Of a DNA stretch of 35,749 bases, positions 29,204 through 35,272 are shown piece by piece (position 1 is the first letter of the stretch; each line of letters starts with the position of its first letter). Made by a program: the position numbers and the translations under genes. Source of the stretch: Candidatus Uhrbacteria bacterium. GTDB taxonomy: Bacteria > Patescibacteriota > Patescibacteriia > UBA9934 > GWF2-40-263. The stretch covers positions 35,576-71,324 of the forward strand of contig DOJV01000047.1 in NCBI GenBank assembly GCA_003511125.1, read 5' to 3'. Below the pieces are notes generated by a model that saw only the letters and a program-made list of their open reading frames with translations, was not told the DNA's origin and did not search any database.

Positions 29204-30248
29204 TTAGTCGTTTTTAAACTTTCTGAATATTCGCTTTTCTAACCTAAACCCATTACAATGCCTCAACAACCCCAAATACGAAGTTAGATTGCTTTTGTCC
29301 ACTCGTTTCAACATTCGCTTTTTTGTCTTTGTCCGCAAAACCGAATAATGCGGTAAAATAACATAACCGAGAAAATCAAAACCTTGTCGAAATTTTCTAA
29401 CCGAAGTTTTTCCGGGATGTAAAACCAGTCGTCTTTCTTTTTCCAACCATTGTTTGATAATCGGAATAAGCGAAAAAAGAAACTCTTGGTTATCCGATAA
29501 AATAATCGCGTCATCGGTATAACGAAGATAATATTTTATTTTCAGTTCATCTTTAATAAAATGATCAAACGTGTCCAAATAAACATTAGCAAACAACTGT
29601 GAGGTTAAATTTCCAATCGGCAAACCGTGCGATCTGGCGATTTCTTCTAGCCCCCCCCCGAGGGTTTGAGGCCTCCGAAAACCCGAAGGGCTCTGAGCCC
29701 GGCCGAAGAGCTGGCACAATTTCAACTTGAAAACTTCCAACTATCTCGGACAGTAACTCGAGAGTTTTTGTATTGGTCACTTTTCGCCGCAAAGCATCCA
29801 ACAGAATCTCGTGATCCACCGAGTCAAAGAATTTTTTGATATCGAATTTAAGAGCGAAACACGACGAGGAATAATTTTTACTAACCTGACGAGCAATTTT
29901 TTCCAACCGTCGCACGGCCGCGTGCGTGCCTTTGCCGATACGACAGGAATAACTGTCAAAAATAAAACCCTTCTCAAAAATCGGCAAAAGGACGCGATAA
30001 ACGGCGTGATGAACAAGACGATCACGAACTATGGCTTTATGAATAATCCGATGCTTGGGATCAAAAACATGGAAACGATGATAATCGGCGTGATGATAAT
30101 TTCCGTTTTTCAAATCTTCGTGAATGGCAAAAATATTATCCTCAAGGTTCTGTTCAAACTTTTGAACATCCGACCGGTTTCGTTTGCCGCATCTGAATTC
30201 ATACCAAGCTGAAAATAAATTTTCCAATGAAATAATTCGATCAAACAT
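29204..30248 (-). pseudogene. DGR reverse transcriptase, frame interrupted at a G9 tract
   Basis: Starts at ATG 30248 (FDRIISLENLFSAWYEF) and covers the RT fold in two frames. The first frame gives RDRLVHHAVYRVLLPIFEKG, SCRIGKGTHAAVRRLE and the catalytic KFDIKKFFDSVDHEIL. The second gives GLPIGNLTSQLFANVYL, the active site YLRYTDDAIIL, LHPGKTSVRKFRQGFDFLGY and a basic C-terminus. GLPIGNLTSQ in place of QGxxxSP is the DGR-RT signature. The frames join at nine G (minus strand; 29651-29659): removing one G restores a single frame of about 347 codons. Just before the join is a palindromic GC-rich insertion (PALRPGSEPFGFSEASNPRG) absent from normal RTs. The enzyme would copy TR RNA with errors at adenines. 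Confidence 0.9.
29651..29715. repeat. GC-rich palindromic insertion within the RT gene
   Basis: Includes GGGCTCTGAGCCC and GAGGCCTC palindromes and the C9 tract. It encodes about 20 residues between the RT core segment ending GSFQVEI and LEEIARSHGLPIGNLTSQ. Confidence 0.6.
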
Positions 30249-30250
30249 AT

Positions 30251-30596
30251 ATGCAAGAAATAAATGAAACTCCGGTTTTTACTTTGTCTTTTAACTTATT
30301 GAAAGACATACACTTACTGCGACGCAAATTTCCAAAAACGGAAAAATATACATTAGGCGGACAGTTGGAACAAACAGCTCTGGATTTATTGCTTAATATC
30401 ATCCAAGCAGGACGAGCAAAAAAACAAGAAAAAATCATACCATTGGAATCGGCTATCAAAAAAAAATGACACGATAAAAATTTTGTTTCGGCTATCAAAA
30501 GAAACTGATCTTATAAGCAGTAACCAATATTTGGAGTTTCAAGAAAAACTGCAAAAAATCGGACAAATGCTGGGTGGATGGCTAAGGTCGGTGTAA
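30251..30596 (+). pseudogene. avd: DGR accessory protein Avd (four-helix bundle), frame interrupted at an A9 tract
   Basis: Starts MQEINETPVFTLSFNLLKDI from ATG 30251 and continues LRRKFPKTEKYTLGGQLEQT, matching the first two helices of Avd/four-helix-bundle proteins. A run of nine A (30458-30466) is followed by TGA at 30467. With eight A the frame continues DTIKILFRLSKETDLISSNQ then YLEFQEKLQKIGQMLGGWLR to TAA 30594-30596, the typical C-terminal helices (about 114 residues in total). Avd binds the RT and TR RNA and is needed for mutagenic retrohoming. It points away from the RT; the two start codons are two bases apart. Confidence 0.87.
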
Positions 30597-30601
30597 ACAA
30601 A

Positions 30602-30634
30602 CGCCCCGTCTCTCGCAAGAGGCGGGGTGTTTTG
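30602..30634. terminator. GC-rich hairpin between avd and TR
   Basis: Ten-pair stem CCCCGTCTCT/AGAGGCGGGG (30604-30627, one T:G) with loop CGCA, then TGTTTTG. It follows the avd stop by 7 nt on plus, and on minus it lies 16 nt after the TR 3' end, where it could cap the TR RNA. Confidence 0.8.
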
Positions 30635-30643
30635 ATTTGGCAG

Positions 30644-30774
30644 TCCCGGCGGAGGACGAGCGAACCGCAGGAGGGCTCGGCAATCCATGAGTTCCTGTTC
30701 AGGTTGAGCTTGGACTGGCCGTCCCAGACTTCGAGGTAGGCGCAGTTGGCACGGTTGTCGCGGTCCACAGAACC
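30644..30774 (-). repeat. DGR template repeat (TR)
   Basis: 131 bp aligning without gaps to the VR at 31093-31223. 116 positions are identical; all 15 differences fall on TR-sense adenines (24 adenines in total). The 3' 32 bases before the last one contain no adenine and are identical to the VR, as expected of an initiation-of-mutagenic-homing sequence. Read in the VR frame it encodes VDRDNRANCAYLEVWDG then QSKLNLNRNSWIAEPSCGSL, rich in AAC codons. It lies non-coding between avd and the target gene. Confidence 0.97.
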
Positions 30775-31002
30775 TCCTTATTGTCACACCCCGTCTTGAT
30801 CACTGAGTTTTCCGCTTTGCGGTCAACTCTGAATTTCATTTGGGATTTTTTTCCACCAGAGCGTGACAAGGAGTGCCTCGTCAGAATCGCGCACCTTTGT
30901 GTTTTACTAAACTCAAAGTTCTGGCGATAGCTCTTTCGAGAATTTCGGGGGTGCTACTCTTTACAAAAAGCAGAACACATTACCCTACTTTCAAAATTAT
31001 TA
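30775..31002. other. Non-coding region between TR and target terminator
   Basis: No gene seen. On the minus strand it leads into the TR. A hairpin GAGTT...CCGC-TTT-GCGG...AACTC lies at 30804-30828. AAGGAGG precedes the TR by a few bases. I could not find a convincing promoter for the TR here, so TR RNA may come by read-through from the target gene. Confidence 0.45.
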
Positions 31003-31038
31003 TAACAAAAACGCGCCGGAACCTCCAATGTCCGGCGC
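31003..31038 (-). terminator. Terminator of the DGR target gene
   Basis: GCGCCGGA and TCCGGCGC (31013-31038) with a 10-nt loop, followed on minus by GTTTTTGTT. Confidence 0.8.
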
Positions 31039-31085
31039 AAAGAGAAAAGGATCGGAAAAGAAGTAAAGATCCAAGGGTCGAGTTG

Positions 31086-31937
31086 CTAGCACTCCCGGCG
31101 GAGGACGAGCGAACCGCAGGAGGGCCCGGCAACCCATGAGCACCTGCCCAGGCTGAGCCTGGACCGGCCGCCCCAGACCTCGAGGCAGGCGCAGTCGGCA
31201 CGGTCGCCGCGGTCCACAGAACCCGGGAGGTCGATGATGTGTTCACCTTCCTTCACGATGTCCGGCTTCTGTACGTAGGCCATGATGCCAGTCATGGCCG
31301 TGCCGGCCAGACGGTTGCCGACACATTCGTCTCGGCAGTCCTCCGGCTTGCATTTGTGGTTGGGTCGGCCGTCGTGACAACGGAACCAGAAGGGCCCAGC
31401 CGGATCGCGGTGGCGATCGTCCCAGGGCTCGACACTCTGGTCGTCGTAGTCGAACCCGAGGTATTTGATACCGAGTAGACCGCACGACTTGGTGATGCCG
31501 AGCCGCGGGTCGGCCAGAAAGAGGAGCGGGAGTTCGAGGTCGTCCGCGAACAGGAAGTCCGGGACGGGCGGAATCGCCCTGAGGTACTGGGCGAGGGTCT
31601 TTGCCGTCGTACCGCGGACACCTTGGTTGAAGCCGCGCTCGAAGAGGATCCTGGCCTGGGCCCGGCGAAGTTGACTCGCTGTCAGGACGCGCCGGTTCGG
31701 AACGATGATGGCGGGCACGGCCAAGGTGATCGGCTCGTCGCGCCGGACGAGGCGGCCGGCGAGGAGGTCGGCGACCACTTCGGGCACGATCCGACCATCG
31801 GACAAAGCCACACCGAGCGGCTCTGTGACCACATGGTGATCCATGAGGCCGTGAATACCGGCCTCAGAAAACTGATCGGCGCGCTCGATGATCTGCTTGA
31901 GCCACGCCGGGATAAAAATCCCAAGTTCCTTCGACAT
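31086..31937 (-). CDS. DGR target protein with variable C-terminus
   Basis: 283 aa from ATG 31937; GGAGG lies 5 nt upstream (a TTG at 31955 is in frame but unsupported). I do not recognise the N-terminal family. It is cytoplasmic by appearance (no signal peptide): a helical opening (SKELGIFIPAWLKQIIERAD), a central region (LAVPAIIVPNRRVLTASQLR, KTLAQYLRAIPPVPDFLF, LELPLLFLADPRLGITKSCG), then a Cys/His cluster FRCHDGRPNHKCKPEDCRDE that may bind metal. Residues 239-282 are the VR (VDRGDRADCACLEVWGGRSR and on to GSLVLRREC), probably a C-type-lectin-like binding surface. It is very GC-rich. It should be the displayed, diversified binding protein of the DGR. Confidence 0.93.
   Translation of the reverse strand: MSKELGIFIPAWLKQIIERADQFSEAGIHGLMDHHVVTEPLGVALSDGRIVPEVVADLLAGRLVRRDEPITLAVPAIIVPNRRVLTASQLRRAQARILFERGFNQGVRGTTAKTLAQYLRAIPPVPDFLFADDLELPLLFLADPRLGITKSCGLLGIKYLGFDYDDQSVEPWDDRHRDPAGPFWFRCHDGRPNHKCKPEDCRDECVGNRLAGTAMTGIMAYVQKPDIVKEGEHIIDLPGSVDRGDRADCACLEVWGGRSRLSLGRCSWVAGPSCGSLVLRREC
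31093..31223 (-). repeat. DGR variable repeat (VR)
   Basis: 3' end of the target gene. Relative to the TR: 14 A-to-G and one A-to-T change and nothing else, altering 12 residues (D to G, N to D twice, Y to C, D to G, Q to R, K to R, N to S, N to G, N to C, I to V, E to G). The 33 bases nearest the stop are unchanged. Confidence 0.97.
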
Positions 31938-32092
31938 CTTTCCTCCACACCCCAAAACCCGAAAGCCACAATCGTTTCTGTCACGATCGCAACTTTCTCA
32001 TCTTTGGAGCATAGAACGAACGCGCGAGAAACCGCTCGCGCGCGGTGCCAGGCAGCTGTCTGGCGGCGTTGCCTCACTCGAGGCGACTGCTT
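31938..32092 (-). promoter_or_regulatory. Hairpin-rich leader of the DGR target gene
   Basis: About 150 nt of predicted leader containing three stem-loops: CGCGCGAG/CTCGCGCG (32021-32042), GCCAGGCAG/CTGTCTGGC (32047-32064) and GCCTC-ACTC-GAGGC (32071-32084). No gene is present in it. Confidence 0.5.
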
Positions 32093-32121
32093 TTTATACA
32101 TTAATTTGAATAAAAAGTCAA
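32093..32121 (-). promoter_or_regulatory. Promoter of the DGR target gene
   Basis: TTGACT (32121-32116), a 17-bp spacer and TATAAA (32098-32093). Confidence 0.75.
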
Positions 32122-32182: not shown

Positions 32183-33115
32183 CTATTTTATATTCTCTCG
32201 TTCCAAAATTTTAAAACCTTCTAAAACAGCATCACACAAAAAATCTTCCAACTGGCTATGGTCGCCTTTGGTTTGAGCTTTATAAAGATAGGTGTAATAA
32301 AGTCGTTTGTTTTCTTGGCGAATAATGGCCGGAGCAAAATTTTCTTTGAGCAACATGGCGTTCATAAACAAACGGCCAACACGGCCATTCCCATCGGAAA
32401 ACGGGTGAATTTGCTCAAACTCGCTATGGACCTTGGCCGATAAATTTATTATATCTGAAGTTTTTTTAAAGGCTCCGGAAACAACAGCAGGAAACAAATC
32501 GGGAATTTTTAGACAATTTGCTGTTGGTAAATTAACACCGACCAATCTAACAGCATGACGGCGATAAAAACCGGCGTCTGATCGAACTCCATTCATTAAA
32601 ATTCCGTGCAGTTTTAAAATAAAATTTTTATCGATTTTTTGCTTCTTGGCAAGATAGCCAAACAAAAAAAGCAACGCTGTTTGATGATTTTTGGCTTCCA
32701 ACTGTTCGATTAAACTTTTGTCTGGCAAGGCGGTGTTGTCAAACAAAATGGCCGCCGTGTCCGGTTCGGACAAAGTACTGCCTTCAATGCGATTGCTGTG
32801 ATAAGTCAATTTCAAAATAAACTGATCGCGGATATCGGGATGTTTAATAATTTCGTTTACAATGTTTTTATACTTCGAAGATTTCCTCTTTAAAATTTGT
32901 TTTTTGGCGATTAGTTGGTCGCCGGGGATTTGTTTTTGGCCGGTGACTTCCAAAAACAAATCGTCGATAGCCGCCAAGCTTTTTTGTCGAGGTTCGGACT
33001 TGCCGGTCCACCAATTGTTGAGAGCCACAAAAGACACCCCCAACTTTTCCGCCAGCTTGGTTTGGGTCAGACCTAAAGTTTTTTGGATAATTTCTAATTT
33101 TTGTCGAATAGTCAT
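32183..33115 (-). CDS. HTH-Fic protein (XRE domain fused to Fic AMPylase/NMP transferase)
   Basis: 310 aa. Residues 1-55 are an XRE/Cro-type helix-turn-helix (LGLTQTKLAEKLGVSFVALN then NWWTGKSEPRQ). The Fic domain carries the catalytic motif HPFSDGNGRVGR (the full HPFx[D/E]GNGRxxR consensus), and upstream the inhibitory helix motif SNRIEG ([S/T]xxxE[G/N]) in the N-terminal part of the domain, so it should be a self-inhibited class II Fic. Fic proteins transfer AMP or another NMP to hydroxyl groups of target proteins. The HTH plus two perfect AACTTTATAAAGTT palindromes upstream, one inside its promoter, point to autoregulation. It could act as a stress or toxin-like regulator; the target protein is unknown. 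Confidence 0.93.
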   Translation of the reverse strand: MTIRQKLEIIQKTLGLTQTKLAEKLGVSFVALNNWWTGKSEPRQKSLAAIDDLFLEVTGQKQIPGDQLIAKKQILKRKSSKYKNIVNEIIKHPDIRDQFILKLTYHSNRIEGSTLSEPDTAAILFDNTALPDKSLIEQLEAKNHQTALLFLFGYLAKKQKIDKNFILKLHGILMNGVRSDAGFYRRHAVRLVGVNLPTANCLKIPDLFPAVVSGAFKKTSDIINLSAKVHSEFEQIHPFSDGNGRVGRLFMNAMLLKENFAPAIIRQENKRLYYTYLYKAQTKGDHSQLEDFLCDAVLEGFKILERENIK

Positions 33116-34112: not shown

Positions 34113-34211
34113 TTAAAAGTGATTAAAGAAAGGGAGTCGCCGTGGAATACGTACCGACTCCACGGCGGAAGGTGCTCGAGACGACTACCCCTCGAGCTGG
34201 GCCGGACCTCC
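34095..34211. repeat. Structured repeat R1
   Basis: Three stems in a row: ACTCCCTT...AAGGGAGT, TCGCCGTGGA...TCCACGGCGG, and GCTCGAG...CTCGAGC. The 82-bp core (34130-34211) matches R2 (34814-34895) with seven substitutions and no gaps. Confidence 0.85.
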
Positions 34212-34256
34212 GATGTTTGGGTTGAGGTTGGGGTTGAACAGAAAAACATGAGGTTG

Positions 34257-34745
34257 TTACTTGGCCGGCGCGGTCGCGGCCTGGCGAGCGCTGACCGGAT
34301 CGACTCCGGCGCGCCGCAGGGCCTCGGCCATGACCGACTGCTCGCGGCTCAGCGGCGCCGTCAGGCGGCGGGTGACAGGCTCGACCGACAAGCTGAGGTA
34401 GTCGAGGTAGACCTCGGCTTCGCTCAGTCGCCGATCGGCCTGCTCGCGCAAGCCGCGCTCGAAGGCCAACCGCTTGGCCGCCAGGCGCTTGGCCGCCAGG
34501 GCCTCGCGCCGGGCCGCTTCCGCGGCGGCGATCTCCTCGGCCGGGGCCTGCTTGGCCGAGAGCCGCTGGAGGGCGGCGTCGGCGGCCTTGAAGGCGTCGG
34601 CGGTGTCGAGGACCACTACCTCGACCGCGACCACCCGGACCTCGGCGATGGCCAGGCTCCTGCGAGCCGGCCGGACGGCGCGATCCAGCTGGATGCCGAT
34701 CTCGGCGTTGATGCTGAGGGGGTGGGCGGAGTTGGTGTTGCGCAT
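34257..34745 (-). CDS. GC-rich hypothetical protein with coiled-coil region
   Basis: 162 aa from ATG 34745, with GGGAG 5 nt upstream (CGGGAGACACC-ATG). Other frames here are also open because of high GC; this one is chosen for its ribosome binding site and balanced composition. Residues 1-50 are beta-like (AIAEVRVVAVEVVVLDTADA). Residues 55-110 are an Ala/Arg/Glu-rich helix with heptad character (APAEEIAAAEAARREALAAK then RLAAKRLAFERGLREQADRR). The tail includes SREQSVMAEALRRAGVDPVS. No family recognised. It is flanked by the direct repeats R1 and R2. Confidence 0.65.
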   Translation of the reverse strand: MRNTNSAHPLSINAEIGIQLDRAVRPARRSLAIAEVRVVAVEVVVLDTADAFKAADAALQRLSAKQAPAEEIAAAEAARREALAAKRLAAKRLAFERGLREQADRRLSEAEVYLDYLSLSVEPVTRRLTAPLSREQSVMAEALRRAGVDPVSARQAATAPAK

Positions 34746-34779
34746 GGTGTCTCCCGGGGTTGTGGTTGGTTTCTGTCAG

Positions 34780-34895
34780 ACTCCCTTCCCTTGACAAATT
34801 TCTTTATCAACGGAAGGGAGTCGCCGTGGAATACATACTGACTCCACGGCGAAAGGTGCTCGAAACGTCTGCCCCTCGAGCTGGGCCGAACCTCC
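34780..34895. repeat. Structured repeat R2
   Basis: Same orientation and layout as R1, 684 bp away, upstream of the 162-aa gene. Its first stem is longer (GACTCCCTTCC...GGAAGGGAGTC with inner TTGA/TCAA). Confidence 0.85.
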
Positions 34896-35272
34896 GGGTA
34901 AAGAGGAAGAGAATGGGTTGGTTGAAAAAGCTGTGAGTCAGATGTTGCGTTCATCTGCTTCGTTCCTTCGCCGAGGACAGATCCTGGCTCCGTGAAACTG
35001 GCTTTTTCTTTATGCGCGGCGCCCTTGTCGCCATTGCGCGGTCGCTTTACCAGACTTGGCCTTAGCCTTAGAGGGACGCAATCCCGATGTCTGGCGTGAT
35101 CCCGACGAGTACTAGACCCGTCCACCGAAATAGGCTTACCAAGGGAAGCCCGAGGATCACTTTAAAAACTTGTGCTTTGCCGCGAGCCTCGATGAGGTGG
35201 GGGTGAACCTCACCAAGGTCTCGCTGGCAGGCAACCAAGAAATGATTTTCTTAAAAAACCAACTCTTGGCTG
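34896..35272. other. GC-rich stretch without a supported gene
   Basis: Open frames exist on both strands, but none has a good ribosome binding site or recognisable product. Small hairpins are present (for example GGCTT-ACCAAGGG-AAGCC near 35132-35152). It may hold untranslated RNA between cassette-like genes. Confidence 0.4.

Follow-up and report, generated by a model that had tools for sequence, protein, structure and literature searches.

When the reverse transcriptase gene of a mutator is found out of frame, is the element dying, or has it been switched off? The question is raised by a locus in a 35,749-nt stretch of DNA from Candidatus Uhrbacteria (contig DOJV01000047.1), here called the window, which contains a diversity-generating retroelement (DGR) composed of a reverse transcriptase (RT) gene, an avd gene, a template repeat (TR) and a variable repeat (VR). 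As sequenced, the window RT is out of frame, and the frame changes at a run of nine G residues (G9). Because relatives carry repeat tracts in the RT gene or in avd in all three reading frames, the window DGR is likely to be a phase-variable mutator that is turned on and off by replication slippage at the tract, a reading to which we assign a probability of about 0.8 on the strength of sequence comparison. Such an element would probably represent two layers of programmed mutation, one upon the other.

Several lines of evidence support the identification of the window element as a DGR of a Patescibacteria genome. The TR and VR align over 131 nt without gaps and differ at 15 positions, all 15 of which are TR adenines on the coding strand (14 A>G and one A>T), while the 107 non-adenine positions of the TR are all the same in the VR. 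The TR holds 24 adenines, and the chance that 15 random differences would all hit them is 7e-14. The changes are spread over 13 codons, with all five AAC codons altered and one change silent (GAA to GAG); just past the 131-nt match there is a single C/G difference. The VR falls in the predicted C-type-lectin-like domain of the target gene, as in known DGRs. The first-pass annotation of this DNA had claimed both the ungapped, adenine-directed pair and the DGR itself. The first claim proved exact in every count, and the second is backed by the pair together with profile matches to PHROG Reverse transcriptase (8e-64 for one RT piece and 2e-41 for the other) and to PHROG "Avd protein of DGR" (3e-8). 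RT profiles match both RT halves and the RT adjoins Avd, TR and VR, its class being assigned on these grounds and without a tree against other RT classes. Among the matches listed, the closest named relatives of both the RT and the target are Candidatus Uhrbacteria.

Tracts at the junction of the reverse transcriptase

The first-pass annotation had also placed an RT and an Avd-type protein alongside the repeats. Both are present by profile, but neither gene is a single open frame as sequenced, and the split of the RT frame around G9 had been overlooked. The N-terminal half of the RT covers profile positions 1–175 and the C-terminal half positions 173–329. The G9 tract and a GC-rich insert sit between RT motif 3 and the sequence GLPIGNLTSQ, which we take to be RT motif 4, so that the junction would lie between motifs 3 and 4. 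Proteins P0002 and P0003 have a peptide insert that resembles that of the window RT. A mobile repeated palindrome was considered as the cause of the RT split and rejected, since a search of the genome with the insert gave no strong second copy (best other match E 0.18) and, judged by eye, the insert is missing from most of the other RTs with a tract.

To place this junction among relatives, 344 locus files were reduced to 326 matches to the N-terminal half and then to 234 distinct usable RT genes, duplicates and genes without a recognisable motif 4 being excluded. Some of these loci had been chosen because the RT looked split and others because it was intact. A repeat is present at the junction in 38 of the 234 genes, as (GA)n of up to 39 nt in 26, as poly-G of 7–12 in 11 and as (CT)n of 33 nt in one. 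Thirteen of the 38 are in frame and 15 and 10 are in the two other frames, whereas 195 of the 196 tract-free genes are in frame. At the same threshold, repeats occur elsewhere in only 5 of the 234 N-terminal parts and 11 of the 234 C-terminal parts, the longest being no more than 10 nt. The distribution is similar in a phase-blind subset of 76 distinct RT genes obtained from N-half profile searches (L250, which has no motif 4, was left out): 25 carry a tract, in frames divided 9/9/7, and all 51 tract-free genes are in frame.

At the protein level, the best 120 of 2,276 and the best 120 of 4,337 matches yielded 175 different RT-like proteins, of which 72 show a run of Gly and 82 a run of ERER beyond about residue 150, the remaining 21 showing neither. 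By simple motif counts, with protein length limited by the searches, 22 of the 154 proteins with a run continue in frame to motif 4. Up to the tract, proteins P0056 (ncbi) and P0058 (ena) match at every one of 177 aligned residues; their ER repeat numbers are unequal, and so are the frames that follow. No near-identical pair of DNA sequences with different tract lengths was found among the aligned loci; of the closest nucleotide pairs, one is 91% alike and has tracts of 17 and 13 nt, and the other is 88% alike and has tracts of 7 and 9 nt.

Genes that are out of frame appear otherwise intact. A full C-terminal half is present in 23 of the 25 out-of-frame tract genes, with no stops in the first 110 codons and the YxDD motif in 23 of 23, and the median profile scores are equal (183 bits out of frame, 178 in frame). 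The ratio of nonsynonymous to synonymous substitution (dN/dS), computed for 16 of the 38 tract genes with synonymous sites near saturation, is 0.09 and 0.06 over the C-terminal half in the two closest out-of-frame pairs (L108–L164 and L108–L166) and 0.07 in one in-frame/out-of-frame pair; the 14 closest of all pairs range from 0.03 to 0.20. An adenine-directed TR/VR pair accompanies 21 of the 25 out-of-frame loci (all but L165, L166, L222 and L298). Since both halves are intact and dN/dS is low, they have presumably been read as one through much of their past, with frame changes that are frequent on that scale. The same two observations led us to reject plain decay as a family-wide explanation, although the window's own copy may be decaying.

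Short GC-rich inverted repeats were often seen by eye directly after the RT tract (L012, L182, L256, L261 and L296). By halting the polymerase, they might make slippage more likely.

Tracts at the start of avd and their distribution

A background scan revealed repeats directly upstream of RTs that have no junction tract. Using an Avd profile grown from the window Avd, we found avd within 700 nt of 221 of the 234 RT genes, on the opposite strand in 213 of 224 matches. A usable avd on the opposite strand accompanies 210 RT genes. Of these loci, 126 have a tract at the avd start, 37 have the RT tract, 47 have neither and none has both, a mutual exclusion with a Fisher p of 4e-18 when kinship is ignored. 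The avd tracts consist of poly-C, (CT)n, (CA)n or (AG)n and lie at the beginning of the avd body. When the closest ATG upstream is taken as the start (median distance to the tract, 19 nt), 34 are in frame and 57 and 35 are in the two other frames; 27 of the 34 in-frame genes stay open until the match ends. Where the tract lies in the RT, the avd open reading frame (ORF) measures 114–139 codons in 29 of the 37 loci and fewer than 100 in four, the window included. In 51 of the avd-tract loci (for example L018, L022 and L035) the RT frame is open through the tract; the RT may begin upstream of it, overlapping avd head to head, and one tract might set both frames.

The avd gene of the window loses its frame at an A9 tract. 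The part read in the other frame resembles the aligned Avd C-termini, and the half protein remains under the family cut-offs (Pfam bAvd, 23.3 against 40; NCBIfam NF033474, 27.4 against 80). A 21-nt near-repeat (30449–30469 and 30488–30508; 90% alike, 39 nt apart) covers the A9. A second DGR is found in the same genome, on contig C17 (G000:C17:17763-18879; L106 and L173), with its own TR/VR pair showing 22 differences, 21 of them at A. Its avd carries a C11 tract and is out of frame by the nearest-ATG rule (L106), and an insert of about 150 nt interrupts its RT near profile position 268.

Long repeats are concentrated at these two sites. Over a span reaching from 1 kb ahead of the RT start to 2 kb past it, 160 of 221 Patescibacteria RT loci contain such a repeat, and 156 of 161 repeats lie either within 150 nt before the RT match or 500–650 nt after its start. 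Over the Patescibacteria loci as a whole, 205 repeats fall in the RT or within 250 nt of it (414 kb), compared with 11 in the remaining 1,248 kb. Viral contigs served as controls, and the comparison is between Patescibacteria loci and viral ones. The 79 viral loci were reduced to 72, three being dropped as contigs already in the Patescibacteria-like set and the others as duplicates, and only one of these 72 distinct DGR-type RT loci has a repeat, a T10 located 750 nt away. Of the four Patescibacteria-like viral contigs (L134–L137), two have the avd tract.

On a FastTree phylogeny of 204 RTs, with the tract site (RT or avd) scored on 157 rows, the site changes at least 8 times, compared with 26–35 when shuffled, while the on/off state changes at least 36 times, inside the shuffled range of 34–46. 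The tract site, as traced on this tree, is inherited but has moved, and phase is nearly random. The idea that the RTs with a tract form one clade was rejected, since the site changes at least 8 times, though its distribution is far from random on the tree. We think it probable that most Patescibacteria DGRs carry one slippage switch, in the RT or in avd, whose site has repeatedly moved, and that binding proteins are hypermutated in a shifting share of the cells, the others retaining a version that has proved itself.

Proposed slippage switching and its alternatives

Slippage would frequently alter the number of repeat units, and reversibly so. With the reading frame intact, RT and Avd would be produced and TR RNA would serve to rewrite the VR; with the frame broken, the VR would stay as it is, and a population would keep both mutating and stable cells. 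The window as sequenced would represent the out-of-frame state. A precedent for the dependence on both proteins exists in the DGR of Bordetella phage BPP-1, where, according to the accessible part of the report, inactivating RT, Avd or TR in a system rebuilt in E. coli lowers repair to about 1e-9, retrohoming being abolished without RT or Avd (PMC12875486). Because DGR mutagenesis needs both RT and Avd, a frame-shifting tract in either gene would silence the mutator, which another slip could reactivate. Two features of a contingency locus are present here: a slippage-prone tract within the reading frame (G9 in the window RT, 38/234 RT genes, 126/210 avd genes) and, among relatives, several frames with intact sequence on both sides of the tract.

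A number of observations weigh against a slippage switch. The case is built on sequence comparison and not on switching, expression or read-level length variation, and the sole pair with different tract lengths (P0056/P0058) consists of assembled proteins. Many loci were selected by RT similarity or for a split look, and only the 76-gene subset is phase-blind. As many as 47 of 210 loci are tract-free at both sites. The avd frames depend on the choice of ATG and are not quite even (p 0.018), and the 51 loci (of 126) with an open RT frame through the avd tract have no ATG, GTG or TTG between the tract and the RT body, which is unexplained. Kinship confounds the exclusion between the two tract sites: the independent pairs with support number 8 and give p 0.25, with the avd tract going the opposite way in a median of 3 and the same way in 0, too few to decide. 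Finally, the window avd has lost its frame too, and at A9, where a switch is not usually found; this may be decay.

Decay of the window DGR, a dying copy with frameshifts in both RT and avd, is the alternative that deserves most attention, and we regard it as unlikely. On this view homopolymers would just be where indels occur; two separate genes of the window are broken, the A9 lies away from the common avd site, and the window is among the 4 of 37 RT-tract loci with a shortened avd frame. Out-of-frame RT halves in relatives, however, are without stops, score normally and have low dN/dS, and many lineages carry the tract at a single site, its frames almost evenly divided; decay may yet hold for the window copy. 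Selection on both RT halves would be expected if ribosomal frameshifting or transcriptional slippage yielded full-length RT or Avd at any tract length, and poly-G, poly-C and poly-A runs are known polymerase slippage sites. A programmed site should nevertheless prefer one frame, and the frames observed are divided 13/15/10 in the RT and 34/57/35 in avd. In addition, (GA)n and (CT)n tracts of 15–39 nt are not usual recoding sites, and we consider recoding quite improbable.

The near-random frame of two conserved RT halves could also arise if these were separate proteins that assemble, their relative frame being irrelevant and the purine tract acting as an internal ribosome site, an arrangement that fits the purine-rich G and GA tracts. 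One RT tract, however, is a pyrimidine (CT)n, tracts abutting motif 4 (L112, L239 and L242) have no ATG, GTG or TTG at ribosome-site distance in the DNA examined, and the tracts just past the avd start are left unexplained, so that a split enzyme has very little to recommend it. An equally slight chance attaches to false frames created by assembly or sequencing error, to which repeats are prone in genomes that are assemblies of unknown depth. Such error does not produce the tracts themselves, their two sites, their rarity elsewhere (11 in 1,248 kb) or their near absence from the controls (1/72), and with two thirds of the genes out of frame the error rate would have to be very high. The slippage switch thus remains our preferred reading.

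The window DGR resembles that of BPP-1 (bRT, Avd, TR and a VR in mtd) in its adenine-directed TR/VR pair, RT, Avd and C-type-lectin-like variable domain, and the Treponema denticola variable protein TvpA (PDB 2y3c) is also among the closest known systems. It differs from BPP-1 in its Patescibacteria host, in the repeat tract in RT or avd and in having avd divergent from the RT, BPP-1 being described in the accessible part of PMC12875486 as an avd-TR-brt operon. The accessible text of Roux et al. 2021 (PMC8144416) describes a DGR clade 2 that is almost entirely cell-encoded and restricted to Patescibacteria; the likeness to our element, by description only, extends to phylum, cellular encoding and a target without a recognisable known domain. 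In contrast to our locus, the clade as described there comes with no mention of a tract, frameshift or switch, and the word frameshift occurs 0 times in that text. As far as the partial accounts available indicate, the phase-variable (contingency) genes of Campylobacter, Neisseria and Haemophilus likewise have a homopolymer or dinucleotide tract in the reading frame and frames that vary among relatives. Those genes mostly specify surface structures or DNA methyltransferases, whereas the gene considered here belongs to a targeted mutator and its switching is proposed. A literature search over titles and abstract openings, with subscription papers mostly outside it, returned no earlier report of such a DGR switch, and an earlier mention is possible; a 2018 paper on diversity generators (PMC5816788), in its accessible part, contains both DGR and phase-variable as words.

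The natural control of DGR activity is an open question. A slippage switch in either RT or avd would answer it simply and in a way that lends itself to direct testing. If true, it would apply to many members of the phylum and would unite two known modes of programmed mutation in one locus. Many such RTs and Avds would then be filed in databases as fragments, and surveys of intact genes may consequently undercount DGRs, as protein lengths suggest.

Target gene, genomic context and coordinates

The source genome (1.11 Mb in 67 contigs, 96% complete) was searched with the TR, which matched itself, the VR and one 18-nt stretch at E 0.24; an additional VR elsewhere in the genome was rejected, as nothing past this 18-nt match was found. 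An A>G spectrum peculiar to the window was also rejected: 14 of 15 is extreme, yet A>G leads in relatives as well, where adenine changes are to G in 385 cases, to T in 128 and to C in 76 (n = 589; 36 pairs, from 34 of the 45 loci scanned). Rfam and ARAGORN over the window returned tRNAs only.

The target had been described in the first-pass annotation as belonging to no recognised family. That holds for Pfam, NCBIfam and PHROG, in which the protein has no match, and Foldseek gave no significant match, but 22 others are related to it in sequence, and its C-terminal part is predicted to be C-type-lectin-like.

Table 1. Features of the DGR, given as positions in the 35,749-nt window (TR, VR, RT and target on the minus strand, avd on the plus strand)
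Feature	Position	Strand	Evidence
RT C-terminal half, other frame (homology from near GLPIGNLTSQ, contains YTDD)	29204..29740	-	PHROG 1423, 2e-41
RT N-terminal half (ORF 220 aa; homology to ~residue 175)	29586..30248	-	PHROG 1423 Reverse transcriptase, 7.6e-64
G9 tract (C9 on plus strand) at frame change, proposed slippage switch	29651..29659	-	sequence
GC-rich, partly palindromic insert directly upstream of G9 tract	29661..29707	-	limits by eye
avd, first part (72 aa), divergent from RT	30251..30469	+	PHROG "Avd protein of DGR", 2.9e-8
A9 tract where avd frame is lost	30458..30466	+	sequence
avd C-terminal part, other frame (…KIGQMLGGWLRSV), to ~30596	30467..30596	+	read from sequence
Template repeat (TR)	30644..30774	-	ungapped alignment with VR
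Target gene (283 aa), predicted C-type-lectin-like C-terminal domain, 65% GC	31086..31937	-	ORF
Variable repeat (VR), 3′ end of target gene	31093..31223	-	15/15 differences at TR adenines

The target gene region (31030–32100) is 65% GC inside a window of 45% GC, as if it came from a GC-rich source. Adjoining the target gene is a Fic/DOC protein with an N-terminal helix-turn-helix (32183–33115). Further along, a GC-rich ORF with no family match (34257–34745) is flanked by 91-nt direct repeats (89% alike; 34122–34896) and resembles a small mobile cassette.

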